Below, in pieces: positions 33,901 through 61,773 of a stretch of DNA of 64,000 bases. Position 1 is the stretch's first letter, and every line of letters begins with the position of its first letter. The position numbers and the translations under genes are program-made. Source of the stretch: Arbacia lixula (Eukaryota > Echinodermata > Echinoidea > Arbacioida > Arbaciidae); the NCBI GenBank assembly GCA_963669155.1, contig OZ022586.1, positions 23,207,379 to 23,271,378 on the forward strand, in the 5' to 3' direction. The notes below the pieces were generated by a model that saw nothing but the letters and a program-made list of their open reading frames with translations, ran no database searches and had not been told where the DNA came from.

Positions 33901-35247
33901 CCTACCCTGGTTCACCCTACCCTGGTTCACCCTACCCTGGTTCGCCCTACCCTGGTTCACCCCACCCTGGTTCACCCTACCCTGATTCACCCTACCCTGG
34001 TTCACCCTACCCTGGTTCACCCTACCCTGATTCACCCTACCCTGGTTCACCCTACCCTGGTTCACCCTACCCTGATTCACCCTACCCTAGTTCACCCTAC
34101 CCTGGTTCACCCTACCTTGGTTCACCCTACCCTGGTTCACCCTGGTTCACCCTACCCTGATTCACCCTACCCTGGTTCACCCTACCCTGATTCACCCCAC
34201 CCTGGTTCACCCTACCCTGATTCACCCTACCCTGGTTCACCCTACCCTGGTTCACCCTACCCTGGTTCACCCTACCCTGTCTGTACCTTGTTATTGGGGT
34301 TGTCGACCTGCTGCAGCACAAACTTGGAGCTCTCATCGTCAGCCTGGAGCGGGTCCCGCTGACTGCGGTGAACCAGGCTAAAGGTCACCGCACTCTTCTT
34401 GTCTATGAACTTCTTCTTCTTTCCAGGCTGTTGAGGAAGAAAACAAAAAAAATAGAAAAAAAACATCACTGACTTGAAAATTGCAATAATGTTAAAGAAA
34501 ATGTCTGATAATACATGTAATAGAGTCAATAATAGAGTCAAGATGACACTTGTCTAACCAGGCCGCAGTCACGCCAGGTGAGGTTGTTGTTGTAGCTTGG
34601 CAAGAGCACTGTCTGTGACTATCCTGTGGGACTCAATCACAAGAAGCAATGTTGGCCATGGTTCTATGAAGCCCATGTTTGTTTTTTCCATAGGATTATT
34701 ATATGAAATGTAGCTGCCAAATATTGTTGCGAAACTCTGACTGTACCCACCTAAAAACTGGGAACGAGAACATCATTTTTGTTTATTTCAATATTATTTT
34801 TTCTGGGATCCTCCAACTTCTTTTCCACAGACCAAAAGTAGATCTCAGTCCAAAATGTTGTCATTTTGTCAACATTGTTGATGCATCTTTTTGAAAAAAA
34901 AACAACTAAAAAGTTAGTCTTTAACTTTATGTGCGACCTTCCTGCGACCAGCCAGCTCACATGGTGAGCGAGATTGCTAGATGAGAATGCCATACTCCAT
35001 CCATAACATGCCATCAACAGTTCTACAATTCTGGCAGAGTGGCACTGCAAAAATGCCAAAGAATCAACAATACAACATTGACATACACAATTATCGATGC
35101 ATGGGACAAGGCTGAGTGTGACGAGTATCACAAAGACTGTGTCGCAATCGACTCTGGAGGAATTATTTGAACTGAATTACTGAATCAGGATTTGGATATA
35201 TTGATAGTGTATATAAACCAAATAAACCATCAGTTGATTCTTACCAT
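27951..35247 (-). CDS. LTV1: LTV1 ribosome biogenesis factor
   Basis: LTV1 joins pre-40S particles, helps place uS3 and is removed before export/maturation is completed (family knowledge). Coding exons on the minus strand: 35245-35247 (ATG only), 34287-34427, 32976-33176, 31829-31922, 31315-31441, 30824-31040, 29890-30017, 29310-29550, 28699-28920, 27951-28064. They sum to 1488 nt, 495 aa (human 475). Diagnostic blocks: KKKKFIDKKSAVTFSLVHRS and QRDPLQADDES (exon 2), YYEDDYDYLQHL (exon 3), NVFASEQEEDIGLLNRAAP (exon 4), RLDLDPDIVAAMDDDFDF (exon 5), SEETKSRFTNYSLTSSVMKR (exon 6), YEEYDDLEIGALD (exon 7), ERWDCESILSTYSTLYNHP (exon 8), KSGMPLNVLP (exon 9), ERRVEKKANK (exon 10). All introns are GT-AG with consistent phases. 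Exon 4 has a tandem NAGNAG acceptor (31922 or 31919). Confidence 0.95.
32025..32351. mobile_element. Palindromic MITE with TTAA target site (Kolobok/piggyBac-like)
   Basis: A 327-bp near-perfect foldback. The left arm from AGGGCATACTGTACTGGGAA is repeated inverted at the right, ending GTATGCCCT. TTAA flanks both ends (32021-32024 and 32352-32355), the duplication of Kolobok and piggyBac elements. The centre is the palindrome CAATTGTTCGGCCCGAACAA. It lies in LTV1 intron 3 and has no coding capacity. Confidence 0.85.
33222..34277. repeat. 15-bp minisatellite (TTCACCCTACCCTGG)n in LTV1 intron 2
   Basis: About 70 tandem units with a few variants (GTAAACCC, GGTCTCCC, TTCACCCCAC) fill the intron between LTV1 coding exons 2 and 3, ending about 10 bases from the exon 2 donor. 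Since 15 is a multiple of 3, both strands stay open for long distances (a 408-codon HPTLV-type frame on the plus strand, NQGRV-type frames on the minus strand). These are not genes. Confidence 0.95.
34428..35244. other. LTV1 intron 1
   Basis: Separates the lone start codon (35245-35247) from coding exon 2. It contains a degenerate CAGCTCACATGGTGAGCGAG hairpin near 34950 related to the hairpin at 23842. No other feature is visible. Confidence 0.6.
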
Positions 35248-35544: not shown

Positions 35545-38300
35545 CCATATTATGACGTCATAATGACGTCTATAAATGACCAAAAAATCTTACATTTTTG
35601 CCTGACCATATTATGACTGTGTAACGACGTCATAATTACGTCTTTAAATGACCAAACAAATCCCACTTTTGCACGACCAGTTGATGACTATGTTACGACG
35701 TCATGATGACGTCATAAAATGACCAAACAAATCCCACTTTTTAACAACAATATTACGACTATTTTACGACGTCATGTTCACGTCTTAAAATGACCAAATA
35801 AATCTCTTATCGCACGACCAGAATCTGACTATAATACGGCGTCAAAATTACGTATTTAAATGATCAAATTTTTCATTGTATGACCAGAATCTGACTTTCA
35901 TTCGATCGACATCTTAAAAGACGTATCCACTTTCTGCATGACCATATCATGACCATATAACGCCATCATAATGACGTCGTTGAATGACCAAACAGATCAT
36001 GTATTGTACGACCAGAATCTGACTTAAATACGACGTCATATTGACGTCTACAAACGACCCCAAAATCTCACTTTTTGCACGACCATTTTTTGACTATTTT
36101 ACGACGCCATGTTGACGTCTTTAGATGACCAAAGAAATCTCTTATTGTACGACCAGAATCTGACTTAAATGAAACGTCATAATTACGTCCTTAAATGAAC
36201 CAAAATCGTACTTCTATGCACGACTTTATTATGACTACGTTACGACATCAAAATGACGTCTTTAAATGATCAAAAACATCTCTTATCTTTAGACCAGAAT
36301 CTGACTATAATACGTCAGAATGACGTCTTTAAATAACCCTAAATCTAACTCTTTTTTGCCCGACCATATTATGACCGTGGTACGACGTGAAATTACGTCT
36401 TTAAATGATCAAAGATTTTCATTGTATGACCAGAATCTGAGTTTCATTCGATCGACATCTTAATGACGTATCCCACGTACTTCCTGCATGACCATATCAT
36501 GACTACATAACGACATCATAATAACGTCTTAGAATGACGTACCAAACAAATCATGTATTGTACGACCAGAATCTGACTTAAATACGACGTCATATTGACG
36601 TCTACAAATGACCCCAAAATCTCACTTTTTGCACGACCATTTTTTGACTATTTTACGACGCCATGTTGACGTCTTTAGATGACCAAAGAAATCTCTTATT
36701 GTACGACCAGAATCTGACTTAAATGCGACGTCATAATTACGTCTTTAAATGAACCAAAATCGTACTTCTTTGCATGACTTTATTATGAATACGTTACGAC
36801 ATCAAAATGGCGTCTTTAAATGACCAAAAAAAATCTCTTATCGTACGACCAGAATCTGACTATAATACAACGTCAGAATGACGTCTTTAAATGACCCCAA
36901 ATCTTACTTTTTTTGCCCGACCATATTATGACTGTGTTACGACGTCAAAATTACGTCTTTAAATGATCAAATTTTTCATTGTATGACCAGAATCTGACTT
37001 TCATTCGATCGACATCTTAAAGACGTATCCCACTTTCTGCGTGACCATATTCATGACTATATAACGACACCACAGTAACGTCTTTGAATGACCAAACAAA
37101 TCATGTACTGTACGACCAGAATCTGACTTAGATACGACGTCATATTGACGTCTACAAATCATCCAAAAATCTCACTGTTTGCACGACCACATTTTGACTA
37201 TTTTACGACGCCATGTTGACGTCTTTAGATGACCAAAGAATCCCCTTTTGTACAACCAGAATCTGACTCAAATGTAACGTCATAATTTCGTCTATAATGA
37301 ACCAAAATCTTACTTCTTTGCACGTCTTTATTATGACTACGTTACAACATCAAAATGACGTCTTTAAATGATCAAACACATCTCTTATCTTTAGACAAGA
37401 ATCTGACTATAATACGTCAGAAGGACGTCTTTAAATAACCCCAAATCTTACTCTTTTTTGCCCGACCATATTATGACTGTATTACGACGTCAAAATTACG
37501 TCTTTAAATGATCAAATTTTTCATTGTATGACCAGAATCTGAGTTTGATTCGATCGACATCTTAATGACGTATCCCACTTCCTGCATGACCATATCATGA
37601 ATATATAACGACATCATAATGGCGTCTTTGAATGACGTACCAAACAAATCATGTATTGTACGACCAGAATCTGACTTAAATACGACGTCATACTGACGTC
37701 TACAAATGACCCAAAAATCTCACTTTTTGCACGACCACATTTGGACTATTTTAAGACGCAATGTTGACGTCTTTAGATGAACAAAGAAATCTCTTATTGT
37801 ACGACCAGAATCTGACTCAAATGCAACGTCATAATTACGTCTTTGAATGAACGAAAATCTTGCTTCTTTGCATGACTTTATTGTGACTACGTTACGACAT
37901 CAAAATGACGTCTTTAAATGATCAAACACATCTCTTATCGTAAGACCAGAATCTGACTATACGTCAAAATTACGTCTTTAAATGACCCCAAATCTTACTC
38001 TTTTTTTGCCCGACCATATTATGACTGTGTTACGACGTCAAAACTCCGTCTTTAAATGATCAAACAACTCTCTTTTGTATGACCAGAATCTGACTTTCAT
38101 GCGACATCATAATGACGTCTAACAGTGACCAGAAACATCTCACTTTTTGCATAACCATATCATGACTAAATTGCGACGTTATAAATGACCAAATCTTATT
38201 ACACTGTACACGGAACAGAATCTGACTCGTATACGATATCATGATGACGTCTATGACCAAAAACATCCCACTTTTAATATGCACGACCATATATTATGAC
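35545..38300. repeat. Higher-order satellite, ~550-bp period of ~80-bp GACGTC units
   Basis: The basic unit is about 75-85 bp and reads TGACGTCTTTAAATGACCAAA, ...ATCTC, ...ACGACCAGAATCTGAC, ...TACGACGTCA. Variants recur in a fixed order: the marker ATTCGATCGACATC appears at about 35900, 36446, 37003 and 37548, and a related one at about 38098 (spacings 545-557). The array therefore has a higher-order period of about 550 bp (some 7 units). It decays past 38300 to about 38830. Confidence 0.85.
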
Positions 38301-39604
38301 TAAATTATGATGTAAAAATGATTTCTATAAATGATCAAACAAATCTCTTAAAAATCTATCTTTGATACGACATCATAATGAAGTCGAACAGTAACCAGAG
38401 ACAACCCTCTTTTTCCATGAATATTATGACGAAGTTATGACGTCATAATGACTTATATAAATGAAAAAAAAATCCAATTTGTTGAACGACCATATCATGA
38501 CTATGGTGCGACGATATAATGACGTCTTTGAATGATAAAAAAAAAATCAGGTATTGTACGAGCAGAATATAAATACGCCATATAAAAATTACAGTAAAAT
38601 CTCACTTATTAGCGCAACCATATTATGATTATGAAGATGTGATGACGTTTTATAAGAATTATCCCAAAATCTTACATTAATTTTTCACCACTATATATGT
38701 TACGAAAATGACCTTAATCTGTCATCTGTCATAAAATTTTACGCCTTTCATTCCCAAAATATGTCCGTGTTATAAGACCATTAAATGATCAATGACAAAA
38801 TGGTGGCAAAATAACGCCTATTTAAAAACAGTATGTCCATGTTGCATGTCATTTTTTTTTTTTTTTTGGGGGGGGGGGGGAGGTACAAACCATGGTAAAT
38901 GCAAGTAGATACCACATGAGGAATTTCCCTCAAATAATAGAACTTAAAGCAAAATTATGGCAATCGCTAGATTTTGAGGTTTTATGCTGGCTGTCTCAGA
39001 CCTATAGCCTAGAGACCGTTGAAGCTATATGCATGCATGAGGACCATGTTTCACTATATTTCACATAGGTCATCGATATTACACATGTGATTCGATCCTG
39101 CCGAGTTTTATGACTTTTACAAATGGGACATCGACCTTTCTTTAAACCTGATAGCGGAACGACGTCTTTAAGACGGTCTAAATTGGTCATAAATTTGTCA
39201 TACGTCGAACAGACGACTACATTACGACGTCTTTATTTAATTCATTTCGCATAAGAAAAAACACATGTATACATGCAGTCAACCTTTTAAAAACGTAACA
39301 TACAAAATACAAACATGAGAAGAAAAAAATGAAAGCACAAATAAACATACGTAGGGATACAAGTAGAGGTGTAACGTCTTTACAAACAAATTAATAAAAT
39401 ATGATGTAACATTATTTTTATAACCCCCTCTTTGATTTGACCCTTCGGACATACCATCATCCACCCTAATTTAATCGCTGCTCATATTACATGACTGTAC
39501 TACATGTATAGTAGTCGCCGGTGTCAGGCTAGGACTAGGAGCGCGCATAGATTGTCTCACGTCTCAAATACCTAGTTATGTTCTTGCGACGTCATGGCTT
39601 GAAA

Positions 39605-42785: not shown

Positions 42786-43440
42786 TTCATACAGGTCATA
42801 AACATTACGTCAACGACGGCTTTAAGACGTGACTAAGACGTCATTTTATAATGTCGTGAAAACGTCATTATGTGACGTCATGATGACGTCAAAATGTGAC
42901 GTCTTATTTGACGTCGTGTGCTGTTGCAAAGTCGCGTCTTTACGACGTCATTTTGTGACGTCGTTAAGACGTCATTTTATGACATCGTTAAGACGTCATT
43001 TTACGATGTTGTAAAGACGACATTATGTGACGTCACAATGACGTCAAAATATGACGTCTTATTTGACGTCGTGTGCTGTTGCAAAGTCACGTCTTTAAGA
43101 CGTCATTTTGTGACGTCGTTAAGACGTCATTTTACGATGTCGTAAAGACGACATTATGTGACGTCATAATGACGTGAGACACGACATAAAAAAGATGTAA
43201 TTAAGACGTGATATTTACCAGTTTTCGGTCATTTAAACAGCATTTTCGTGTTTAAAAGACGTCTTAAAGACGTCGTATTTTAACCGAAATGACGTCAAAA
43301 TGACGTAAAAATATGACGTCTTTTTTGACGTCGTGAGCTGTTGCAAAGTCGCGTCTTTAAGACGTCATGTATATGACGTCATAAAGACGTAAGACACGAC
43401 TTCCAAAAGACGTAAAATTGACGTGATTTTTACCAGTCTC
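42786..43440. repeat. Right-hand GACGTC/AAGACGTC array
   Basis: Dense units such as GTTAAGACGTCATTTTATGA and TGATGACGTCAAAATGTGAC, with a ~185-bp block starting GACGTCATTTTATAATGTCG repeated two to three times (GTGCTGTTGCAAAGTC at about 42918, 43070 and 43330). Many copies contain the full TGACGTCA palindrome. Confidence 0.85.
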
Positions 43441-45288: not shown

Positions 45289-48200
45289 ATGTCACTCGAA
45301 TCACAGCCACCTCTGAAGATTATTCTCGACTCAAAGAATGACCCGTATCCGAAAACGTCGCAATGGACCGAGTAAGTACTCGGACTCTTTTTGTTGACGG
45401 CCCATGCATGCCATGGGCATGGGCATTGCATTGCCATTGCATTGGCATAGCCAAGCCCATCTCTTGTCTATGACTTGCCCGGTCAGTTGATCGAGACAAT
45501 GCCATTGAATGTCACTGTGCATTTTGAATTGTGAAATTCATGTGAATGTACTTCAACTGTGTGAAACTGCATGATTAAGTAGATCAAGGTTAAATAAAAT
45601 TAATAATTGAATGTCTGTTTACAAACAATTTTTTAGTGAAACGTCAGAAAATTAAAAATGCTCCTCATTTCAAATTCAAGAAGACTGGTCACGTCACCCA
45701 TGGCCATGCTGGTACTAATACTATGTCTATGCTATGGCCGAGAACCAGGTTTATCTTGATTAAATCATAAACCACTTATTAAACTTGTTTTGACATGTTT
45801 GAAGGTAGACTTTTGAATTTCACATTCAGGTCCGCTGCGCGCTGTGAGGGATGACGTACGGTCGGTGATAGTGTCACTGATTAATATTGTTTGTGGTTCA
45901 TAAATAAATACAATCCATAATACCACATGGGTGACTATTTAATAAGACTACATTCATGAAGTTATCAGTATTGTACTGTTGTTAATGTTTAATATTGAAC
46001 AGAACTTGAAAAGAGAAGGAGCCGCAGTTTTAAACCACGGTATATTTTGTCCAGTTATTAAGCATGAAACATGATACTTTTTAGGCTGAAGCATTATGTT
46101 TCATGCTGAACTGGAGAAAATATATTGCGGCTTAAAACTACAGCTCCTTCCCTTTCTTTTTTTTCCCTTTCCCGATGCCAATGCCTTTGAGCTGGAGTGT
46201 ATGACATTCTATTTGGTGTTTCACTTCAATTTTGTATTGAGGAGAACCAACAATGGGTCCATATAATTTAAAAGCCCCAATGACGTACTAAGCATCTTCA
46301 TGCCAGTGGTAATTAGAGAGTTCAGTTAACTTCATTTAATTTTAGCAGGGTGACCCACTTCAGTCATAGGCTGTTTTTTCAGGGGGGATGTACAAGAAAA
46401 AAGACTTTACACATAAAATTTAAACATAGAGCTTGTATCAAAATAAAATGTTAAAATAAACAAACAAAAACGAAACTTAACGAAACAAGCAAACAGAGGC
46501 AAGAAATTTACATACACAAAAGTCATTTAAAAGACGAAAACAAACATGTATTAAAGAAAAAAAATGAAAACAAATGATATAACTAAATGCTTTGTGACAA
46601 TCAGATACTCAAAAGGCAAGGCAATTAACTCACTGTTTGTGTGTGTTTGTTTCTGCCTTCAGCTCAGAGCGGCGAGTATGGACAGTGCTGCTGTTTGTGA
46701 TGACAGCCATGGTATTCTCAGCAAGGACCATCGTCCCTCTTGTTGCTGTCAATGTCTCCAAGGAATTTGGCTGGGACAAGACAGACACAGTAAGTTACAT
46801 GAAAAAAACAACAGCAGTCTCAGGGCTTTAACCCCTGCAATGCTAAGTAGATGGTACGTGGTGATCGAGTCACAGAGCAATAACAATTAAAAAAAGTGAT
46901 GTTTGATCCATCCATTGTCTGAATGTTCAGAATGAATACATAAAGCCTGATGTCATGAAACGAATGCCTCAAATCCTGTTGTGCATTGTCAAGTTTGAGG
47001 ATTCAAATAGGAAGAAATGTTTTCTGAGGAAAGAATCAATGTTTTAGAGTCATGGAGTAATGTAAAGACATACGGACAAATCAGTGCAGAAAGTGACATG
47101 GCACTCTTCATCTCATAAGTGCTAACATGAAACTTATTGGAATGGATGAGGGATTGTGTGATATTGTCTTGATTTTTTTTTTGATAGTAACAAATGTGCT
47201 CAGTTCTTTTATATCCTTCATTAATATATTCCAGTTCGTTGATTGGTTGAAAGGGTGTCACATGACCACAAATAGATGAACTATTTGGAGGAAGAGAGCT
47301 CAGAGGGAAGAAAAGTACTATTTCGTGACGTCATGTCAAAAATAGTAGCCCTTTTCCCTCTGTCTGGATATCAATTCATCCCGGGTAATGCGCGACACAC
47401 AAAATCTGCGCAATACATTTCTTTCCAGCTGCTTTTTGGCATTTTAGCGGAAAAATTTGAGACCCTGGGGGAACTCTCATGGTGTTGCGGCCAAGGCGCA
47501 ACTCGAATTTCCGTTGGTCTGGTCAAGCCGCAGGAAATAGCAAAAACTTCTGAATCGGACTCCTGCATTCGGAGCCTAGAGCATGGACAGTATTACAAGG
47601 TCCATGGTAAGGACTAAATTAATGACCAAAGAATATATTAATGAAGGATGAAAAAAAATATTTCGTAATTTTTATTTGGGATCTTTGTGGAATCTATTGG
47701 TCCCCTCGGTGAAGTGGAGGGCGTGCGATACCATTTTCCCTCGACCTCCGGTCTCGGGGAAAATAGCACCCCACGCCCTCCACTGAACCTCGGTGCAAAT
47801 AGATTCCACAAGATCCCTCATGGTAATGAAATATTTGTATGCTATCCCCATTTTTCTGTTGTGTTCCTATGTCTCTTTTTCATTCCTCTTTTCCTTTCTT
47901 CTTCACATTCCTTTCAAAATGCCTGCCCTTCTTGTTCTCCATCTCACCTGATGTTGTCTTCCTGTCCCAGGGACTGGTGCTTGGCTCCTTCTTCTGGGGC
48001 TATCCCATTGCCCAGATCCCGGGGGGGATGATGAGCGATAGGATCGGAGGGGATTACGTCATTGTCCGAGCAGCTTTCATCTGGAGCATCGTCACCTTGG
48101 CTACCCCGTTCGTGCCCTACTTCTTTACTTCTAAGTCTGGGACCATCATGTCAATGACGTTTCTTCGCTTTCTGATGGGGCTTATTCAAGGTAAAGGAGA

Positions 48201-51200
48201 AAGATGGACAGTTATATCATCAACTTTCTGATTGGTTATACAAATATTGAATGGAGGACAGTTATACCATTGACTTTGTGAAGGATCGTACACAGGCTAT
48301 TGATGGGTTAGGATAGATTTTGAAGGGGTTTATAGTTATGCTATTTACTTTTTAACATGTCCTATTGGAGGTTGAACTTGTCTTAACCCTATCTAGCTCA
48401 GGGGAGGGGGGGGGGGGACAAAAACAGCCCCCCCCCCTCGACATATTTATGCCTCCGCCACGAAGTAACCTTTCTCTGTATAAGACATTGTTTAACCATT
48501 TGACTCCACTGTTTAGCTGTGGTATTCAGGGTGACTTTTCTCTGTATAAGACATTGTTTAACCCTTAGACTGCATTGATAGTTCATTGTTTAGCTCTGTT
48601 ATTCATGGTAACTTTTTACTGTATAAGACATTGTTTAACCCTTTGATTGTACTGTTTAGCTGTGGTATTCAGGGTGACTTTCCTCTTGTAACACATTGTT
48701 TAACCCTTAGACTGCATTGATAGTTCATTGTTTAGCTTTGTTATTTATGGTAACTTTTTACTGTATAAGACATTGTTTAACCCTTTGATTGTACTGTTTA
48801 GCTGTGGTATTCAGGGTGACTTTAATCTTGTAAGACATTGTTTAACCCCTTGACTCCATTGTATTAGCTGTGGTATTCAGGGTGACTTTCCTCTTGTAAC
48901 ACATTGTTTAACCCTTAGACTGCATTTATAGTTCATTGTTTAGCTCTGTTATTCATGGTGACTTTTTACTGTATAAGACATTGTTTAACCCTTTGATTGT
49001 ACTGTTTAGCTGTGGTATTCAGGGTGACTTTCCTCTTGTAACACATTGTTTAACCCTTTGACTACATTGCTGGTACATTGTTTAGCTCTGTTATGCATGG
49101 TGACTTTTCTCTTATAAGACATTGTTTAACCTTTTTACTCCGCTGTTTAGCTGTGGTATTCAGGGTGACTTTCCTCTTGTAAGAATTTGTTTAACCCTTT
49201 GACTTCTTATTAGCTGTGGTATTCAGGGTGACTTTCCTCTTGTAAGACATTATTTAACCCTTTGATGGTACATTGTTTAGCTCTGTTATTTGTGTGACTT
49301 TTCTCTGTATAAGACATTGTTTAACTATTTGACTCCACTGTTTAGCTGTGGTATTCAGGGTGACTTTCCTCTTGTAACACATTGTTTAACCCTTTGACTA
49401 CATTGCTGGTACATTGTTTAGCTCTGTTATGCATGGTGACTTTTCTCTTATAAGACATTGTTTAACCTTTTTACCCCGCTGTTTAGCTGTGGTATTCAGG
49501 GTGACTTTCCTCTTGTAAGAATTTGTTTAACCCTTTGACTTCTTATTAGCTGTGGTATTCAGGGTGACTTTCCTCTTGTAAAACATTATTTAACCCTTTG
49601 ATGGTACATTGTTTAGCTCTGTTATTTGTGTGACTTTTCTCTGTATAAGACATTGTTTAACTATTTGACTCCACTGTTTAGCTGTGGTATTCAGGGTGAC
49701 TTTCCTCTTGTAACACATTGCTTAACCCTTTGACTGCATTGATGGTACATTGTTTAGTTCTGTTATTCATGGTGACCTCTTTCTTATAAGACATTGGTCA
49801 ACCCTTTAACTCCACTTTCCTCTTGTAAGACAGGACTGCATTGATAGAAAAACTTTGATATTGCCATTTTTGTCTCGCCCACCGGAGGTGAAGGCGAGAC
49901 TAAGGGATCCAAATGGCGTCCGTCCGTCGTCCGTCCGTCGTCCGTCCGTCGTCCGTCGTCCGTCACAAATGTTAAAGTTTACCTGCAAGACTCTCTTTTG
50001 ACAAATAACTTCACATGGGTTGCTTGGATTACAACCTAACTTGGGTCATAGATGCACTGGGGGTACCTTCATGTTATGGTACCGTTGGAGGTCACAGGAT
50101 AAGGTCAAAGGTCATTTGAGGTCATACGTTAAAGTTTACCTGCAAGACTCTCTTTTGACAAATAACTTCACATGGGTTGCTTGGATTACAACCTAACTTG
50201 GGTCATAGATGCACTGGGGGTACCTTCATGTTATGGTGCCGTTGGAGGTCACAGGATAAGGTCAAAGGTCATTTGAGGTCATACGTTAAAGTTTACCTGC
50301 AAGACTCTCTTTTGACAAATAACTTCACATAGGTTGCTTGGATTACAACCTAACTTGGGTCATAGATGCACTGGGGGTACCTTCATGTTATGGTGCCGTT
50401 GGAGGTCACAGGATAAGGTCAAAGGTCATTTGAGGTCATACGTTAAAGTTTACCTGCAAGACTCTCTTTTGACAAATAACTTCACATGGGTTGCTTGGAT
50501 TACAACCTAACTTGGGTCATAGATGCACTGGGGGTACCTTCATGTTATGGTACCGTTGGAGGTCACAGGATAAGGTCAAAGGTCATTTGAGGTCATACGT
50601 TAAAGTTTACCTGCAAGACTCTCTTTTGACAAATAACTTCACATGGGTTGCTTGGATTACAACCTAACTTGGGTCACAGATGCACTGGGGGTACCTTCAT
50701 GTTATGGTACCGTTGGAGGTCACAGGATAAGGTCAAAGGTCATTTGAGGTCATACGTTAAAGTTTACCTGCAAGACTCTCTTTTGACAAATAACTTCACA
50801 TGGGTTGCTTGGATTACAACCTAACTTGGGTCATAGATGCACTGGGGGTACCTTCATGTTATGGTGCCGTTGGAGGTCACAGGATAAGGTCAAAGGTCAT
50901 TTGAGGTCATACATTAAAGTTTACCTGCAAGACTCTCTTTTGACAAATAACTTCACATAGGTTGCTTGGATTACAACCTAACTTGGGTCATAGATGCACT
51001 AGGGGTACCTTCATGTTATGATGCTGTTGGAGGTCACAGGATAAGGTCAAAGGTCATTTGAGGTCATACGTTAAAGTTTACCTGCAAGACTCTCTTTTGA
51101 CAAATAACTTCACATAGGTTGCTTGGATTACAACCTAACTTGGGTCATAGATGCACTGGGGGTACCTTCATGTTATGGTACTGTTGGAGGTCACAGGATA

Positions 51201-54200
51201 AGGTCAAAGGTCATTTGAGGTCAGGGATACAATTCTTTTGCGTAGCAACGGAGATCGCGATATTTCTGGTTATTTTCGCAAGTGGGCGAGACACAATATT
51301 GCTAATGCCTTGTTTAATCCCCCGGGCTATATAGGGTTAAGGCCCCTAAACATTTAAACCCTGAGAGTGAGGGAACGTATTCCAAACAAACACTATATAC
51401 TGGAGAAAATTATTCACTTGCATGAATGCTTCTAACTTAATTCGGAGGTGCTACATCCTAAAAGAAGTTCCATTATCATTTGTTGCTACTGTCAAAGCTA
51501 GTTTTTTTTCCACCATCATTCCCACTTTGCTTTGGCTCATTACAACTGTTACAAATTGTGTTTAGAGCCTAGACTTAGAAAGTAGGCTGACAATCTGTAA
51601 GTATGTTTTTATGCCTCCCGGAGGCATTATGTTTTCGGGTTGTCCGTCCGTCCGTCCGTCCGTCCGTCCGTCCGTCCGTATGTCCGTCCGTACGTCCGTC
51701 CGTCCGTCCGTCCCGAATCCGTTAAGGCAATATCTTGAGAACCATTAACCAGATTTGCTTCAAACTTGGTACATGTGTGTATTGCATGAAACCAATGAAG
51801 TGTGTAAAATAGGGGTCAATTCTGATCGAGGTCAAAGGTCAAAGGTCAATGAACTTTGTGAAACATTGCCCAAAATTGACCTTTTTCACAATAAAGCCAA
51901 ATCCAAGGATCCAATTCTCATGAAACATGGTACAAAGATGGATCACTACTTGGGAATAGACTGGTGACATTTATGATACATTTCCTGAAAGTTCAGAGGT
52001 CAAAGGTCAATGAACTTTGTGAAACATTGCCCAAAATTGACCTTTTTCACAATAAAGCCAAATCCAAGGATCCAATTCTCATGAAACATGGTACAAAGAT
52101 GGATCACTACTTGGGAATAGACTGGTGACATTTATGATAAATTTCCTGAAAGTTCAGAGGTCAAAGGTCAATGAACTTAGCCAAAATTGGCTAAAAACTG
52201 CCCCAAGCTTTATATTTTTCACAATAAATCCAAATCCAAGGATGTAATTCTTATGAAACGTGGTACTAAGATGGATCACTACTTGGCAATAGACTGGTGA
52301 CATTTTTTGGTGAAATTTCTGGAAGGCCAGAGGTCAAAGATCAATGAACTTTGTAACAATTTGCTAAAAATTGGCCCCAAATTGATATTTTTCACAATAA
52401 ACCCAAATCCAATGGTGCAATTAACCAAACATGGTACAGAGATGTATCACTTCATGGAGGTATATTGATGGAAGTTTGGGTAAAATACCTGAAAGGTCAA
52501 AGGTCAATGAACTTTGCCAAAAATAGCTAAAAAATTGCAGCCAAAGTAATATTTTTCAAAATAAATCAAGATCCAATCATGCAATACCAACCAAACATGG
52601 TGCAAAGATGGATCACAACTTGGGGGTAGACTGATGATATTTCTGGTGAAAATTCTCAAAGGTCAGAGGTCAAAGGTCAGTGAACTATGCCAAAGTTAGC
52701 TAAAAATTGTGCCAAATTTAACATTTTCACATTGAATGCAAAACTAATGGTTCAATTAGAACCAAACATGGTACAGAGATGTATCACTTTATGGAGGTAG
52801 ACTGGTGAAAGTGTGGGTAAACTTTCTGAAAGGTCAAAGGTCAATGAACTTTACCCCCAGATTGGCTAATTCTACACAAGTTTGATACAAGGATGGCTTT
52901 AGACGGACTGATTAGATTGGAAGTCAAAGGTCAATGAACATTGCCAAACTTGGCCAAACATGGAAAAACAGAATATGATATTTTCATTTCACATAGGAAT
53001 TAAATGGTTCATTGCCCAACAAACAGGTTTTCTGAGAATAAATGTAAATAGAGCTAGCAAAGAGGCGGAGGCATATTTATCGACTGCGCGGCAGTCGAAT
53101 TGCTCTAGTTTTTTTTTTTAGGGGAACAATTTTTTTCCCTTTGTGTATTTAATTTTTGCCTTACTCTTTGTTACCTTCCTCGTATAGGTGTGCACTACCC
53201 ATCACTCACCAGTCTCTTGAGTCAGAAGGTTCATGCTGATCAGAGAGCATACGTCATGTCCTGTGTCTTTGCATCTAGCTCACTTGGGTAAGTCACCACT
53301 GACAAACTTTTGTATGATTAAGGATCCTGCCTAACTCTATGAAGATTTGTTATTGAATGAAAATTCTTCCTAACTCTATGAACCTTACCTGGCATTGACG
53401 AGCTACCACATGAATAAAGGTCTTGCCTAACCCTATGAACAAGTCTTCTTACTGAACAAAATTATGCCTAACACTATGATAAGATTAAAGTACTTTCCCC
53501 TAGAGTGTAATCCTTTATTTCAGCTCGTGCATACATAAGGGCTGCAACAGATTGTGTGATGACATTTATATGGGATTTGGGTGATAAATCAGTAATCTTG
53601 CAACCAACTTGAATGCCAATTCGTGTGGTCCTCAGATTCTGCCTGAAGTCACAAATTTTCTTTGTTTATGTCCCTTTTGAAAGGCCTGTACAACTAAGAA
53701 AGATGCAGCTGGGGGTCAGACATGTTTTTGAGATCACATAGTGCCAATGATTTTAACTGTACCACAAATATCACTCAATATTGGTTTGATATGTCATCCC
53801 AATAAGGGAATCTAACAAGTTTTGTGTGACATTCATGCTTGTGTAATATTAATCTATATTGCACTCTTTCTTGCCTTTCTTTTCTCCCTGCCTCCAGCAC
53901 CCTGCTAACAGGTGCGATAGGCTCCATCATCATGGACCACACAAACTGGCACTACGTATTTTACTTCTTTGGGGGTGTGGCCCTCGTCATAGCAACCATT
54001 ATGAACTCACATTCCAAGAAGCAGCGTAGGAAAACCTTCTTCTCCTTCCAGAACGGGCGAGCAGGGACGAGGAAGGAGGATGATGAGAAGAAGAGTCTGC
54101 CTGTCATGAAGCTCATTACCCAGAAGCCTTTCTGGTAGGTCAACAACCTGTAGCAAAGGTCAATGAACTCTGCAGAAGAATAGCTTTTTCAAAAGAACTA

Positions 54201-57200
54201 GATATCTGGATAAGCCAATGTCAAATAAAGCTGATCTAAATATCAATATTAACCAAGCATTATATAAATATGGATTTCTTCACATCAGATATTTACGTCA
54301 AATGTGTCAGTGCCCAAAGCCAATTAATGTTTTCAAAAAAGGCAAGAAATGTAAACAATTATCAAATTTTAACCGAACACAATACAACAATGTATGTACC
54401 GTTGTATGGAGATTAGCTAATGAAATATAGGGTAAGATCTATCACAGGTCAAATCTTTGAATTATTTCATTTCAGCACAGACCATCTGGGAGAAAAAATT
54501 GATTACATTTTGTAATAAATCCATCGGTGCTGTCACATCAAAGGTCAATGCGCTTACCTTTATAATGATAAATAAGTTTATGAGTGTGGCAAATTGATTT
54601 AATCATACATGTATTACGCGATATAGGTTGTCTTGTTACTAGCTTCAAACACCAAGGCCCTGTTTTATGATAAGTTGTGATTGATTGAAATTGACTTGCG
54701 ATTTATACCAATCGTTACATTAGAGCTACATTACAGGCTGTAGCCACGAGCACAGGTGAATGCTGCTTACTTGCTCACTGTACATGAGAGATAGGGGTTT
54801 GGACTTGCAATCGATTCATATCAATCACAACTTTTTGTAAGATGGGGCCAGATCTATCCCGATCAGGAGGAGAGTTGAACTTCCTCTTTCTCTCTTCACT
54901 CCCTCACAGGGCGATGGCATTTAGCCACCTGTGCGTCATTTTTTCATTCTTTATTCTGATAAATTGGATGCCCACATTCTTTAAAGAAGTATACCCTCAG
55001 GCCCAGGTGAGTGTGCCGAGTCCTCACCTTGCATCCTGCTCAACAACTAATCATGGAATCTTCTCTTTCCTCCCCGTTTTTTTGGTTTCTCTCTCTGTTC
55101 CTGTCTGCTTTGGTCCATCTGTTCCCTTCTCCTTTCTCCTGCATTAGCCTTCTTTTCTCTTCCTTCTCCTTCCTCTCCCATTCTCTGTCTGCAATCTCTT
55201 TTGCTTCCTCTCCTTCTCCTTCCTCTCTCCTTTCTATTCCTCCCTTCTCTTTGTATCTATATCACTTAATCTTGTTTTCATGCTGTGCTTGTTTGTGGTG
55301 TTCCCTCCTCCTGTGGCCCTAATCTGTCCTGCTTGTTATTTTGCTGTGTTTGTTTGCTGTTTATCATGCCTCATCTCTTTCTGTCTCTCATTCTTACGAT
55401 GCTTCCAATGATTTGCAATCTTGCTTCCTTTGTGGCTGAAAATCGCTGCCTTGCTTGCTCTCTGATCATTGCTTTCCTATGTTTCCTATCACTCTATCCA
55501 TTTATCTGTTTATGTGTCTTTCTCCATCTGTCTTTCTACTATCCACCCTTCTATCTCTAAGTCTCTTTCCATCTTTCCATGTACAATCTTCATGTACAAT
55601 ATGTCTATATACAATCTATGAACTATGTACTATCTATCCATCTATCTCTCTATCCGTCTATCCATCTATCATCTTATCCATCCATCTTTTTATCTGTCAA
55701 TCTACTTTTGTATCCATCCTTCTCTCTATCTATCCATCTATCCTATCTATCCATTTTTTCCATCTATTATCCTATCCCCCCCTCCAATCTACCCTATGTA
55801 TCTATCTCCCTATCTATCGATCTATTCTATCCGTCTCTCTATCTCTCTATCCCTTCATTTCTTTTCCTCCCTGTCTATAGGGGTATTCTGATAGGTCACA
55901 ATGCTCTGAATTTTACGATGTGGCTCATACTGTCGTGGATGCCCACATATTTCAAAGAGGTCTTTCCTGCAGCCAAGGTAATAAGAAGCTCATGTTTCCA
56001 TTGTGAAATTCATTCAAAATCAAATTTGCTGTTTCCCTATTCAAATTCATTTTCATTAAAAAAAAGAAAAGAAAAAGCAAATATAGTGCCGTCCGTCGCC
56101 AGATTTTTTCAAGGGGGATGCCTTTTGGGAAAACAAGACAAAACTTACCAACTCCAATGTCAGGCAGTGGACTTGTATATTGCACTAATGTAGGCATGTC
56201 AAGTATTCTGATCACTTCACCATTTGTGCACCATTATTGCAGTTTTGGACAAGTACTAGACATAATACTCCATAGGGCTGCTATTGTTCAAGCAGACCAA
56301 GGGCTACAGGTGGTGGAGAGTAGAGGAATTGGTAGGAGACATTTAATCTTGGCAGATTCTGTTTGCTGCCCTCACAAGGGCATGGTCATGTTTGCTTTCA
56401 ATGTCAGCATCAGTGTGAGAGGATTCATTCACATGATCATGAAATGAAAAGACAATGGGGATTGGGGTTATCATAGAATGACTCGGTGATGATCATGAAA
56501 TGAAAAGACAATGGGGATTGGGGTCATCGCAGAATGACTCGGTGATGATCATGAGTGTTTTGACCTTCACCACTACCATCCTTTATCTTTCATCTGCACA
56601 ATACTGGTGTTGCAATATCTTGCATGACAAGTTTCATTGGGTAATTTGAAATTCTGTCCAGTCCTGAAATCAGATATGGTTTCCTCCAGGTGCCTTGCCC
56701 AAACAGTAAAAAAAAAGAAGAAAAAAAAACCTGTGAAAAATGTATTTTTATCATCAGGTATTTGGATCTAATGCCCAGCATGGTCAGATGTGTTTCTTTC
56801 GTGAAATGACACAATATTATTTGGCCAAACACTTGATACCTAATTAACACTTATTCTTTAAGAACAAAATAAACTTGTTTTCAAAAACTTTTGTATGCAC
56901 TTTGAAAAAGTCACCATACTTTATTCCAAAACAAGTTGAATACAATACAGTATCTGAGATCAAGCTTTCTTTGTTTTCAGTACGTTTAGCATACTTCTTC
57001 TAATCATTTGATACTTATCCTTTTTCTTATCCTTCTTGTACTCTTCCGGTTCTTTACATTCTTTTCTTGTTTTTGTCACCTCATTTTTTCAAACCCTGAC
57101 ATCCATCATATTAAATCTCTGGTATGCTGAAGGTCCTCTTGTCTCAGAGGGTAGCTTTCTTTCTGTCTTGATGTTGGTTTACTGCATGTGATATTAAGAC

Positions 57201-57266
57201 AAATTGCATGATATATTGTACATGTTATGTTTCACTTCAAATTATATTATGTTATATTTCATTGCA

Positions 57267-57297
<31 letters not shown>

Positions 57298-59424
57298 TTT
57301 TTATTATTTTTTTTTTACAAAGTATGGATGTCATTTAAAACGAGAATTCAATGACAAATGATTTCTTTTATACAATGATATTTCATAGTCCACCATGTGC
57401 TAGTCCTCAAAAGGACTGTTTGGTGTTATTCTTTGTAACCATTCGAGTACCATAGATGCATGAAAGGTGTAATAAGTCAAAGCCCTTCTCTATACTTGGT
57501 TCTTAAAGGATTAAGCATGGCAACATTTAATTTATCTTTGACATCATAGTTGTGTTCAAGTCCGGGGCTGGCACCTCTGATGCTTTACATAGTCCTCCAC
57601 ATTTCTATAAACTTGTGATTTCTCTAAAATCTTTAGCACTGTATGTGTACATATGTTGTGATATGGAGCCTGTTCCTACTGAACAGAGATTTGTTTCTTT
57701 CCCCCTTCCCCTCCCCCCTTAAACTATGGCAATATGTGTTTTCTGCTGTACGTTGCAGCCTTGTTTCTCTCCCCCTTCCCCTCCCTCTAGAATCTATGAC
57801 AGTATGTATGTGTGTGTGTGTGCATATATTGTGATATGAAGCGTGTTCCTAATGACAGTTTTTTTCTCCCCTGACCAGGGCTGGGTGTACAACGTGCTTC
57901 CCTGGCTGGCAGCCATGCCTGCCTCGATAGCAGGGGGTATACTGGGGGATTCCCTCATCGCTCACAAAGTGCCTGTAGGAATCTCAAGGAAGATCATGCA
58001 TGTAAGTATCAGGGTGGTATTCTAAAGATTGGCTTATCTCTTGTTGTTTCTTTATGAGATCATAGAGTGCTAATATTGTTGTAAGTTGGTTTTCTAAGAA
58101 TGATTGTATCTCTGTACAGACCACCTCTCTTTTATCTTTCAAACACCCGTTTGTTGAGACACAACCAATCAAAATTGAATGTTTGAAGGGGCCTGCGTCT
58201 GTCAGCTAATCATAAACAAAGTTTATAAACACCACAGTATGTAGATATAAAAGAAAATACTGTTAAAAAAAAGGTCAGAATATAGGAACTTGAAATTGAT
58301 GTTAAATGGCTTTATATTGACCTTGTCAGTTTGTATGGATTGATTAGACATTACGGTTTCATTCCTCTATTGATCTCCCAGACGATAGGTATGGTTGGCA
58401 TGGCAGCAGCGTTGATAGGGGTGGGGCTAACAGACAGCTACTATGCATCGCTGATTCTCCTGATCCTAGCGGTCATGGGTCAAGCTACCACCAATAGCAG
58501 CATCCCACCCAACGCACAGGACATTGCTCCCAAGTATGCTGGCTCTGTCTTTGGTAAGCTGGCCTCAGGGACACAGGCTGGTCCCCAGGGCAGAAAACGT
58601 GTGATAGAAACGTTATGCATGCACTGTGCAACTGGTTTAGAAAGTTATTGTGTGTCAAGTGATAATTGAGTGCACCACATGTTAAGTCACTGCAAGCCAA
58701 GTAGTAGATGACAGGTTTGAATCCTACTGCTTCAAAGAATTTTCTTACCCATTTTTCATTCATTTACGAGATGAAGCATGAGATCTTTACTACTGTGAGT
58801 AAGCCAAAATGTATCTCCTCATCAACCTGTTTGGTTGATGGTGTTTTTATAAGATTTCTTACTGATGAGAAAATGACATTCTAGTCTTTTAGGATTTTGC
58901 CCTAGAGTTGCAAGGAGAGAAATTACAGTGCTTAGAAATGTGAAGATGGGTTTTTGGCCCATTTGTGGTGCAGGTTATTTATCAATATTGCCACAAATCT
59001 CAAATGCAGTAACACATTTATATACTCACTCACTTTTGATCACTTTTATATGCTGGGCTCTGTGCGAGACAGTAAGTCATGTGAATATTGAATGCTGAAG
59101 GAAAATTACAGTACATTCTTATGGCAGTGAGATATCTTGAAAAGGGCATTATTAGTGATGGCGTTTTTTCCAGTCAACCATCCTTGATGATTTGTTGACA
59201 CATTAATTCCCTACAAATGAACTGCTTATAATACTTGTGTTTCCCCCTATCCAGGTATCGTCAATGCTATGGGAGCAGTGCAGGGCTTTGTAGGGACGTA
59301 CATCGCTGGCTGCATCCTGCACTCCACCGGGAGCTGGTCGGCCGTCTTCAACATGTCAGCTGGCGTCTGCCTCCTTAGCTGGATCTCATTTACTCTCTTC
59401 TCAGTAGGCACGCCCATCATCTGA
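45289..59424 (+). CDS. SLC17A9: SLC17A9-type vesicular nucleotide transporter (MFS)
   Basis: Twelve-helix carrier of the SLC17 family; SLC17A9 (VNUT) loads ATP and other nucleotides into secretory vesicles. Coding exons: 45289-45371, 46663-46789, 47971-48190, 53188-53287, 53898-54134, then either 54910-55006 (6A) or 55881-55977 (6B), 57879-58001, 58382-58553, 59255-59424. Each isoform is 1329 nt, 442 aa (human 436). Motifs: SARTIVPLVAVNVSKEFGW, LGSFFWGYPIAQIPGGMMSD then RIGG (loop 2-3 signature), FLRFLMGLIQGVHYPSLTSL then LSQKV, GTLLTGAIGS, WMPT(F/Y)FKEV, NVLPWLAAMPASIAGG, PNAQDIAPKYAG, GTYIAGCILHSTGSW. These align with human SLC17A9 from memory. The start is the first in-frame ATG; the frame is open upstream but has only GTG there. 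The N-terminus is short and polar. Paralogy within SLC17 is likely A9 but not proven. Confidence 0.92.
47272..47625. other. Intronic segment with likely transposon debris
   Basis: An open frame of 113 codons (47276-47617) has no recognised domain. It contains CGTGACGTCATGTC and CCCGGGTAATGCGCG and does not fit the transporter's splice pattern. Origin unclear. Confidence 0.25.
47668..47824. mobile_element. Foldback element in SLC17A9 intron 2
   Basis: Left arm GGGATCTTTGTGGAATCTAT, GGTGAAGTGGAGGGCGTG; the right arm is its near reverse complement (CCACGCCCTCCACTGAACC, AATAGATTCCACAAGATCCC). The loop carries CTCGACCTCCGGTCTCGGGG. Non-coding MITE-like palindrome. Confidence 0.7.
48402..48470 (+). 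mobile_element. Orphan 5' end of a Helentron-like element
   Basis: A G-run, ACAAAAACAG, a C-run, CTCGACATA, then TTTATGCCTCCGCCACGAAG. The last part equals the 5' terminus of the elements at 15846-17304 and 51606-53108, but the rest is missing and 71-bp tandem repeats begin at once. Confidence 0.6.
48471..49815 (+). repeat. ~71/142-bp tandem repeat array in SLC17A9 intron 3
   Basis: Units of the type GCTGTGGTATTCAGGGTGAC, TTTCCTCTTGTAA, CATTGTTTAACCCTTTGACT recur. The phrase TGTGGTATTCAGGGTGAC occurs at 48518, 48661, 48803, 48869 and 49011, i.e. spacings of 143, 142, 66 and 142. This indicates a dimer of about 142 bp made of two diverged monomers of about 71 bp. Confidence 0.85.
49868..51305 (+). 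mobile_element. Helentron-like element with eight 157-bp repeats
   Basis: The 5' part is GTCTCGCCCACCGGAGGTGA, a fold with GGCGAGAC, then a (CCGTCCGTCGT)n microsatellite. The core is eight 157-bp direct repeats (starts about 49969, 50126, 50283, 50440, 50597, 50754, 50911, 51068), almost identical. The 3' part is GTGGGCGAGACACAATATTG then CTAA before T. GTCTCGCCCAC at the 5' side and GTGGGCGAGAC at the 3' side form the subterminal inverted repeat typical of Helentrons and their pearl-like derivatives in marine invertebrates. It is a different family from the element at 51606. Each repeat holds AAGGTCAAAGGTCATTTG then AGGTCA. Confidence 0.78.
51606..53108 (+). mobile_element. Helentron-like element, second copy of the 15846-17304 family
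   Basis: The 5' end is TTTTTATGCCTCCCGGAGGC then ATTATGTTTTCGGGTTG and (CCGT)n (51643-51712). The core has about eight ~165-bp repeats containing GAGGTCAAAGGTCAATGAAC (for example 51829, 51995, 52158, 52495, 52663, 52827). The 3' end has GGCGGAGGCAT, the hairpin CGACTGC-GCG-GCAGTCG, AATTGCT and CTAG at 53105-53108 before T. Non-autonomous, in SLC17A9 intron 3. Confidence 0.82.
54657..54848. mobile_element. Palindromic MITE (same end family as 6549)
   Basis: The left arm GGCCCTGTTTTATGATAAGT, TGTGATTGATTGAAATTGAC is mirrored by the right arm AATCGATTCATATCAATCAC, AACTTTTTGTAAGATGGGGCC. It lies in SLC17A9 intron 5, just upstream of exon 6A. Non-coding. Confidence 0.7.
54910..55006 (+). CDS. 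SLC17A9: SLC17A9 alternative exon 6A (membrane helix 7 region)
   Basis: 97 nt between CCCTCACAG and GTGAGT. Its first base completes the TGG codon split after exon 5 (TG|G), and it ends on a codon boundary. It encodes 32 residues after that Trp: AMAFSHLCVIFSFFILIN then WMPTFFKEVYPQAQ. The SFFILINWMPTFF part closely resembles the human SLC17A9 segment SFFILLSWLPTFFEE as I recall it. Skipping both 6A and 6B, or including both, would shift the frame. Confidence 0.9.
55007..55880 (+). repeat. Pyrimidine-rich, CTAT-repeat intron between exons 6A and 6B
   Basis: Strongly C/T-rich over its whole length, with TCTTCCTCTCCC-type runs (55060-55260) and degenerate (TCTATCTATCCA)n from 55545 to 55850. 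The long forward reading frames here (141 and 204 codons) are low-complexity artefacts; the second merely runs into exon 6B. The stretch may bind polypyrimidine-tract proteins (inference). Confidence 0.8.
55881..55977 (+). CDS. SLC17A9: SLC17A9 alternative exon 6B (membrane helix 7 region)
   Basis: 97 nt between TGTCTATAG and GTAATA, with the same length and same phases as 6A (first base completes TGG, ends on a codon boundary). It encodes GILIGHNALNFTMWLILS then WMPTYFKEVFPAAK after the split Trp. By my count 12 of 32 residues equal 6A, nearly all in the second half (WMPT, FKEV, P, A). The N-terminal half is divergent: NFTMW instead of IFSFF. HNALNFTMW recalls the H-x-x-x-N-W-T-F type helix of sialin-like SLC17 members (from memory). 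Confidence 0.9.
56085..56165 (+). repeat. Dispersed poly-C repeat family, partial copy 3
   Basis: AGTGCCGTCCGTCGCCAG, AAGGGGGATGCCTTTTGGGA and AGACAAAACTTACCAACT correspond to the first half of the repeat at 25335. The poly-C part is missing. Confidence 0.5.
56435..56546 (+). repeat. Two 56-bp tandem copies in SLC17A9 intron 6
   Basis: GATCATGAAATGAAAAGACA begins at 56435 and 56491, with a third start, GATCATGAG, at 56547. The two copies differ at two or three bases. Confidence 0.85.
57267..57316. repeat. (AT)n and poly-T tract
   Basis: A (TA)n run is followed by T-rich sequence. Simple repeat in the intron before SLC17A9 exon 7. Confidence 0.8.
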
Positions 59425-60541: not shown

Positions 60542-60828
60542 TCTTGGGTTGCAGAAAGATGCCATATGGTCACTTAAGAATACTCCATGTTTCAGAGACA
60601 CCATTAATATTTTAAATTGTAATCATCAAAGTTCAGTCCTACAATTTTTAGAAGCAAAGCTTAGCCCCTACATGTATGTAAAATACTTCATTACAATCGC
60701 TCAATTTGTTGACCAGTCTTCCTGTTAATCTTCAGTCGGGCTGTTGGGCACTGGGAGCTAAAACACATTCCATTCTAGGAGACACAGGGGAAGCACAGTT
60801 GTGTAGTTCAAAGTGGAAGGCAGTACAA

Positions 60829-61176
60829 AGGGCCGATGATATGTTAGGTATACCTCTGTACTGCTATTGATCTCACAGCTGGGATGCATGTGTGATTCCT
60901 TTGCTGCACATACAACGGGCCGGTGATATGTTAGGTATACCTCTGTACTGCTATTGATCTCACAGCTGGGATGCATGTGTGATTCCTTTGCTGCACATAC
61001 AACGGGCCGGTGATATGTTAGGTATACCTCTGTACTGCTATTGATCTCACAGCTGGGATGCATGTGTGATTCCTTTGCTGCACATACAACGGGCCGGTGA
61101 TATGTTAGGTATACCTCTGTACTGCTATTGATCTCACAGCTGGGATGCATGTGTGATTCCTTTGCTGCACATGCTA
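60829..61176. repeat. Four 87-bp tandem repeats
   Basis: ATGTTAGGTATACCTCTGTA recurs at 60841, 60928, 61015 and 61102, exactly 87 bp apart. Copies 2-4 are identical as far as I can see. 87 is a multiple of 3, so a minus-strand frame of 130 codons stays open. I regard it as an artefact. Confidence 0.92.
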
Positions 61177-61773
61177 CAGGCCGTGCTCGGGCAAAGGTCC
61201 ATTTTAGACCAGCAAGAGCTGTCTTGGTGTGCTTGTGTTTGCTAGTCTAATTCAGCATTATGTTGGTAATCTCTAGAACTAGACTTGTGATGCTTTCATG
61301 AAGGTTACTTCTTCTATGAAGACAAATTGGTTTGTATGAGTACAGCTTTTCTTTCAAACATGTGTTGCAGTATTTATTCATCGTAATGAAGGTAATTGAT
61401 TTTGTATGTTTCCTCTGTATGTAACATGACTTGCATCCTTGGCAGTACTAAATGCCTCAAGATGTGATGCGATGTTGTGCTATATGGAATGCGTCAGGAA
61501 CTAAAAATTTGAATCACATTTTATTTCCTGCAAATGGAAATAGATTGTATATTTCAAGTTATGTCTGTAACTAAAGGATGTAAATAACTTCTTGCATTCT
61601 CCCAACAAAAGTCTTCAATGTATGATAATCAAATGCACACAATGTGCATGAGGAATAATATGTGTGTGTGACGTCATGAGATTTATTTATTGTAACTTAG
61701 ATGGAATGATCCTCATTAGTCAGAGCTGGGACCTTCAAGGGGAGTTCATTGGCATGCATTGGCCAGGTTATCC

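Follow-up and report, generated by a model that had tools for sequence, protein, structure and literature searches.

The locus examined here raises the question of whether a single SLC17 gene of the echinoid Arbacia lixula carries two versions of one transmembrane helix (TM7) as alternative exons, and whether the choice between them would yield two different carriers. The window, by which we mean the whole 64,000-nt stretch of DNA that was analysed (23207379-23271378 of contig C11, in a genome of 607 Mb and 590 contigs), holds on its plus strand a gene spanning 45289-59424, whose nine coding exons give a 442-residue protein with either version of exon 6 (6a or 6b, Table 1). Both isoforms are open from the ATG at 45289, which is preceded by in-frame stops, through the TGA at 59424; AG/GT is present at every internal splice site, and the difference between the isoforms is confined to residues 257-288. 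Intron 3 is full of tandem arrays (48471-52852), with units of about 336, 208 and 142 bp at 48471-49816, eight 157-bp units with a 98% match at 49971-51223, and units of 161-171 bp at 51832-52852.

Table 1. Features of the SLC17 gene (positions in the window) and ADP-ribosyl cyclase regions of the same genome (contig positions)
Feature	Position	Strand	Basis or details
Exon 1, coding part with ATG, 83 nt	45289..45371	+	open frame, gtaagt donor, upstream in-frame stops
Exon 2, 127 nt, TM1 region	46663..46789	+	splice sites, continuous frame
Exon 3, 220 nt, reaches TM4	47971..48190	+	gene model; aligns with sialin and VGLUT2
Exon 4, 100 nt	53188..53287	+	gene model
Exon 5, 237 nt, constitutive, 3' end TTC TG	53898..54134	+	gene model
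Exon 6a, 97 nt, TM7 version a, AMAFSHLCVIFSFFILINWMPTFFKEVYPQAQ	54910..55006	+	acceptor cctcacag, donor CAGgtgagt
Intron 6a-6b, 874 nt, 76% pyrimidine, CTAT array 55630-55851	55007..55880	+	composition and tandem-repeat analysis
Exon 6b, 97 nt, TM7 version b, GILIGHNALNFTMWLILSWMPTYFKEVFPAAK	55881..55977	+	acceptor gtctatag, donor AAGgtaata; DgoT and sialin matches
Exon 7, 123 nt, constitutive	57879..58001	+	gene model
Exon 8, 172 nt	58382..58553	+	gene model
Exon 9, coding part 170 nt, TGA stop	59255..59424	+	gene model
ADP-ribosyl cyclase region	C20:5140092-5140331		PF02267
ADP-ribosyl cyclase region	C15:17171957-17172997		PF02267
ADP-ribosyl cyclase region	C15:10426256-10426519		PF02267

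The initial annotation had placed two homologous exons of equal length between exons 5 and 7 and proposed that only one of them can be used per mRNA. The boundaries given for both exons are exact, with AG before and GT after each. Exon 5 ends with TTC TG, either exon adds the G that completes the same Trp codon, and both stop at a codon boundary ahead of exon 7. Spliced translations agree with the proposed dependence on frame: with both exons included the protein is cut off after residue 399 by a stop in exon 8, and with both skipped it ends in exon 7 after residue 272. Since the frame is intact only with a single copy, splicing would take one copy per mRNA; the frame logic can be read directly from the exons, and their exclusive use would be its expected outcome. 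Adjacent, homologous, equal in phase and each provided with its own splice sites, 6a and 6b have the layout of tandem-duplicated exons, and the mutually exclusive architecture is borne out in phases, splice sites and frame as far as genomic sequence can reach. We therefore consider a mutually exclusive exon switch in this SLC17 gene very likely.

The two exons are identical at 52 of 97 nucleotides and at 12 of 32 encoded residues, and the encoded segments have a BLOSUM62 score of 83. Chance similarity is ruled out, since the maximum among 100,000 shuffles was 32, and so is the side-by-side assembly of two alleles, because 52/97 is far too low an identity for alleles. No third copy was found when the window was searched with both exon peptides, and the whole genome has two exact matches to the pattern TGGATGCCNACNNNNTTYAARGARGT, one in 6a and one in 6b. 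The flanks, up to 500 nt on either side of the exons, show weak matches at most, which makes the duplication an old one.

The gene had been described as an SLC17A9-type vesicular transporter, and the family part of this description stands. The protein matches sialin (E = 2.6e-48), VGLUT2 (1.7e-36) and DgoT (8.4e-25), and both isoforms match MFS_1 (PF07690, 178.4 and 175.2 bits). These three are also the best solved relatives, at 168.3, 129.3 and 90.8 bits, respectively, for isoform b and 163.2, 126.0 and 71.8 bits for isoform a. TIGR00894 scores higher for isoform a (170.5 vs 162.6 bits) and TIGR00893 for isoform b (165.7 vs 160.8 bits), all below the curated cut-offs. In TM4 the alignment places a Met (residue 139) and a Gln (residue 143) in the columns of sialin E171 and E175, two residues that may sense protons according to the sialin literature consulted. 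Human SLC17A9 presumably has Met and Gln at these positions as well, and we take its TM7 to resemble exon 6a. With the subfamily part of the description resting partly on this resemblance to the human protein, the gene is probably an SLC17A9/VNUT-type vesicular anion carrier gene. A TM4 without both sialin-type Glu residues would be consistent with the predicted membrane-potential-driven transport of nucleotides into vesicles.

Exon 6 spans TM7 and the loop that follows it. As had been noted, the loop end is kept, with W-M-P-T and FKEV conserved, whereas the helix half is divergent: 10 of 14 residues are identical in the loop half and 2 of 18 in the helix half (Fisher p = 0.0008). The earlier placement of TM7 in the transport path is in line with published SLC17 work, which assigns this helix to substrate contact and gating. 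In DgoT, Gln264 touches galactonate and TM7 bends over the substrate as a gate (PMC6532931, PMC11649914). R314A/R322A/R326A in VGLUT gave no significant Cl– or glutamate currents (PMC6057745). In sialin, Tyr301, Phe305 and Tyr306 are part of a hydrophobic cavity hosting the inhibitor Fmoc-Leu-OH, Y306A and L309A considerably reduce transport, and locking involves TM7.

Aligned to these proteins, the 6a/6b residues are H/H at sialin H298 (DgoT Q264), V/L at Y301 (VGLUT2 R322), I/N at N302, S/T at T304, F/M at F305, F/W at Y306 (DgoT W272), I/L at L309 and W/W at L311 (DgoT W277). The VGLUT TM7 Arg of PMC6057745 was assigned to the Y301 column on the strength of the alignment, where VGLUT2 has no other Arg in TM7. 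The changed residues are thus on or beside published TM7 sites, namely the sialin cavity and gating positions, the VGLUT Arg and the flanks of DgoT Gln264. Judged by their spacing, sialin positions 298, 302, 305, 306 and 309 would lie on one face of the helix, so that the swap would repaint this face while retaining the residue aligned with the substrate contact.

Our main reading, to which we assign a probability of roughly 0.6, is that the TM7 exon of an SLC17 gene, likely of SLC17A9/VNUT type, was duplicated long ago, that each mRNA receives one copy, and that two functionally different carriers are made. Either choice would retain the His aligned with DgoT Gln264, the W-M-P-T end and the FKEV loop, and would exchange the pathway-side residues at sialin positions 302, 305, 306 and 309. 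Given these exchanges the two proteins, with all else in common, should not be alike in gating, affinity or the substrates they prefer, and a change of substrate or gating through the TM7 swap is plausible. Alternative use of the exons might instead tune assembly, stability, voltage or chloride gating or localisation rather than the choice of substrate. Such tuning would fit the role of TM7 as the gating helix in DgoT and its help in locking sialin, as well as the presence in both versions of the His aligned with a substrate-contacting residue. The changed positions include ones that line the sialin cavity, however, and we regard this alternative as rather unlikely, although it deserves to be kept in mind.

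The two copies were also compared with their relatives by exchanging the exon alone in a TM7-TM8 fragment and holding the remainder constant. Against DgoT the fragment scores 30.2 bits with 6b and has no match at E ≤ 1 with 6a; the scores for 6b and 6a are 39.7 and 32.2 bits against sialin and 26.0 and 21.9 bits against VGLUT2. The BLOSUM scores of 6a/6b with the solved structures are 44/57 for sialin, 24/61 for DgoT and 39/40 for VGLUT2. For six other SLC17-type TM7s of the same genome they are 52/72 (C5), 46/38, 35/22 and 28/19 (C19a, C19b and C19c), 43/44 (the VGLUT-like C17) and 30/29 (C13). The comparison is mixed in that the three C19 loci favour 6a and C17, C13 and VGLUT2 are near ties. 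On these scores 6b is closer than 6a to DgoT and sialin. We suggest that 6a may be a VNUT-type helix and that 6b may retain more of an older, DgoT-like SLC17 helix.

If one of the copies were a relic or hardly used, a single carrier would be made. We compared the exon pair with a simple neutral-decay simulation run to the observed divergence, 20,000 times from each exon. An open frame survived in 29% of the runs that started with 6a and 33% of those that started with 6b, an open frame together with AG/GT in about 2.9%, and the observed similarity of 6a and 6b was reached in 0 of 20,000 runs in either direction (maxima 69 or 71). For this one genome, and within so simple a model, we infer that selection has kept both as TM7-coding exons. 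The relic reading can point to the weak donor of 6b (AAGgtaata), which is third lowest of the nine donors under a rough weight matrix, the donor of 6a (CAGgtgagt) being the highest. Against the outcome of the simulation, and with both versions recognised as TM7 of SLC17 proteins, we consider it very unlikely.

As for how exclusive splicing might be achieved, steric exclusion is unlikely because the intron between 6a and 6b is long enough for splicing. The premature stop lies 243 nt before the last junction upon skipping and 56 nt before it upon double inclusion. A distance of 56 nt is near the usual limit for mRNA decay, and decay could remove the skipped mRNA and perhaps the double-inclusion mRNA. 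These stop positions would also suit an on/off control in which double inclusion or skipping gives unproductive mRNA and less protein, but both exons yield complete proteins that differ from each other, a property for which a simple poison exon would have no need, making this the most improbable of the alternatives. RNA pairing did not stand out in a crude and weak test, in which 45 of 60 shuffles for introns 5-6 and 26 of 38 for introns 6-7 reached the observed energy; the duplexes span most of the introns, and introns 5-7 had 1 shuffle only. The strand bias of intron 6 is matched by 3 of 2188 overlapping background windows, and its tetramer density, part of which is the CTAT array, is reached by 95 of 2188. 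This pyrimidine-rich intron is a lead for a PTB-type control region.

The genome was further searched with the TM7 peptide from C5, which returned eight places: exon 6b, six SLC17-type TM7s (one each on C5, C17 and C13 and three on C19, the one on C17 being VGLUT-like), and one on C2 that was dropped because of a stop inside it. SLC17-type TM7s are hence present elsewhere in the genome, and a second TM7 exon was found at 0 of these 6 loci in the 10 kb around each. Eight weak second-exon matches in the six 10-kb stretches (E 0.001-0.045) were discarded because all of them break off before the Pro-(Thr/Ser)-Tyr end of TM7; one of the eight, at L047 4580-4630, is TM7-like in its first half only. 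Among the 24 matches listed in another search of the genome, the present gene accounts for nine and a paralog for two; five coincide with the six loci or lie close to them, and eight mark further SLC17-like places. The count of second TM7 exons covers the six loci. The paralog shares contig C11 with the gene (643137-650471, minus strand), and its exon 3 is 59% identical across 73 residues (57% in the genome search). A 60-kb stretch yielded no match to exons 6-9 of the paralog and contains a run of 5000 N (636050-641049) after exon 5. The start of its exon 5 (TLVNGFVGSLLLER...) is present in ~4 tandem copies (C11:643445-643842, minus strand), some with AG before them.

An Rfam scan of the window at the gathering threshold and a tRNA scan each returned 0 matches. 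A ribosomal protein S7e exon is present on the plus strand at 4215-4508 (PF01251, 102.7 bits). Several repeats have open frames: a tandem repeat at 18050-18571 has two open frames on the plus strand (one example being repeats of DGTQLLHAFHSEPSKHKVRVS), a short-period tandem array at 33136-34359 has two simultaneous open frames of SPYPG and LVHPT type (408 and 265 codons), and 60761-61246 on the minus strand is an open frame of near-identical 29-residue repeats (PVVCAAKESHMHPSCEINSSTEVYLTYHR). The stretches 37001-38700 and 42800-43430 are rich in ACGTC/GACGT and by eye look like a diverged repeat family. Outside the window, COX1 on contig C590 scores highest under the echinoderm/flatworm mitochondrial code (PF00115, 502.1 bits with table 9, 501.3 with table 4 and 493.7 with table 5), albeit by a narrow margin over table 4, and its two AAA codons stand at sites where Asn is conserved, which points to an echinoderm.

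Mutually exclusive exons are already known in other carriers. The gene of the sodium-potassium-chloride cotransporter, SLC12A1 (NKCC2), likewise has mutually exclusive exons, which encode a transmembrane helix and alter ion affinity, but both the family and the helix are different. In humans, 236 tandem duplicated exon substitution events in 214 genes have been described, enriched in ion transport genes and mostly ancient, and a third mutually exclusive exon of SLC12A1 is mentioned in the same report (PMC9741552). These events also involve adjacent homologous exons, of which each mRNA carries one; the unit that would be swapped here is the TM7 of an SLC17 protein. The literature searched (titles and abstracts, with few subscription papers covered) holds no report of mutually exclusive exons in SLC17, including SLC17A9. 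SLC17A9/VNUT belongs to the same family, to which the present gene adds two alternative TM7 exons. The solved relatives sialin, VGLUT2 and DgoT have other substrates (sialic acid, glutamate and galactonate), and the portions of the structural literature examined make no mention of an alternative TM7 for them. What would be new here is the unusually clean swap of TM7 within SLC17.

The acidic cortical granules of sea urchin eggs contain ADP-ribosyl cyclases, and transport and inhibitor work describes a transporter that brings β-NAD+ in and a separate one that takes cADPR out (PMC2581485). Neither transporter had been identified when that paper appeared. The ADP-ribosyl cyclase domain (PF02267) gives four matches over the cut-off in the present genome, in at least three separate regions (Table 1). 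That the TM7 swap produces two vesicular nucleotide carriers, one of which serves in eggs as the β-NAD+ importer or the cADPR exporter, is a long shot. If the switch is confirmed, the gene would be a candidate for the missing carriers of nucleotides in the vesicles of echinoderm eggs. It would also amount to a natural helix-swap experiment, in which TM7 is exchanged while the remainder of the protein is constant and the residue aligned with the substrate contact is fixed, and as such would trace the preference of VNUT-like proteins for substrates and anions to particular residues of TM7.
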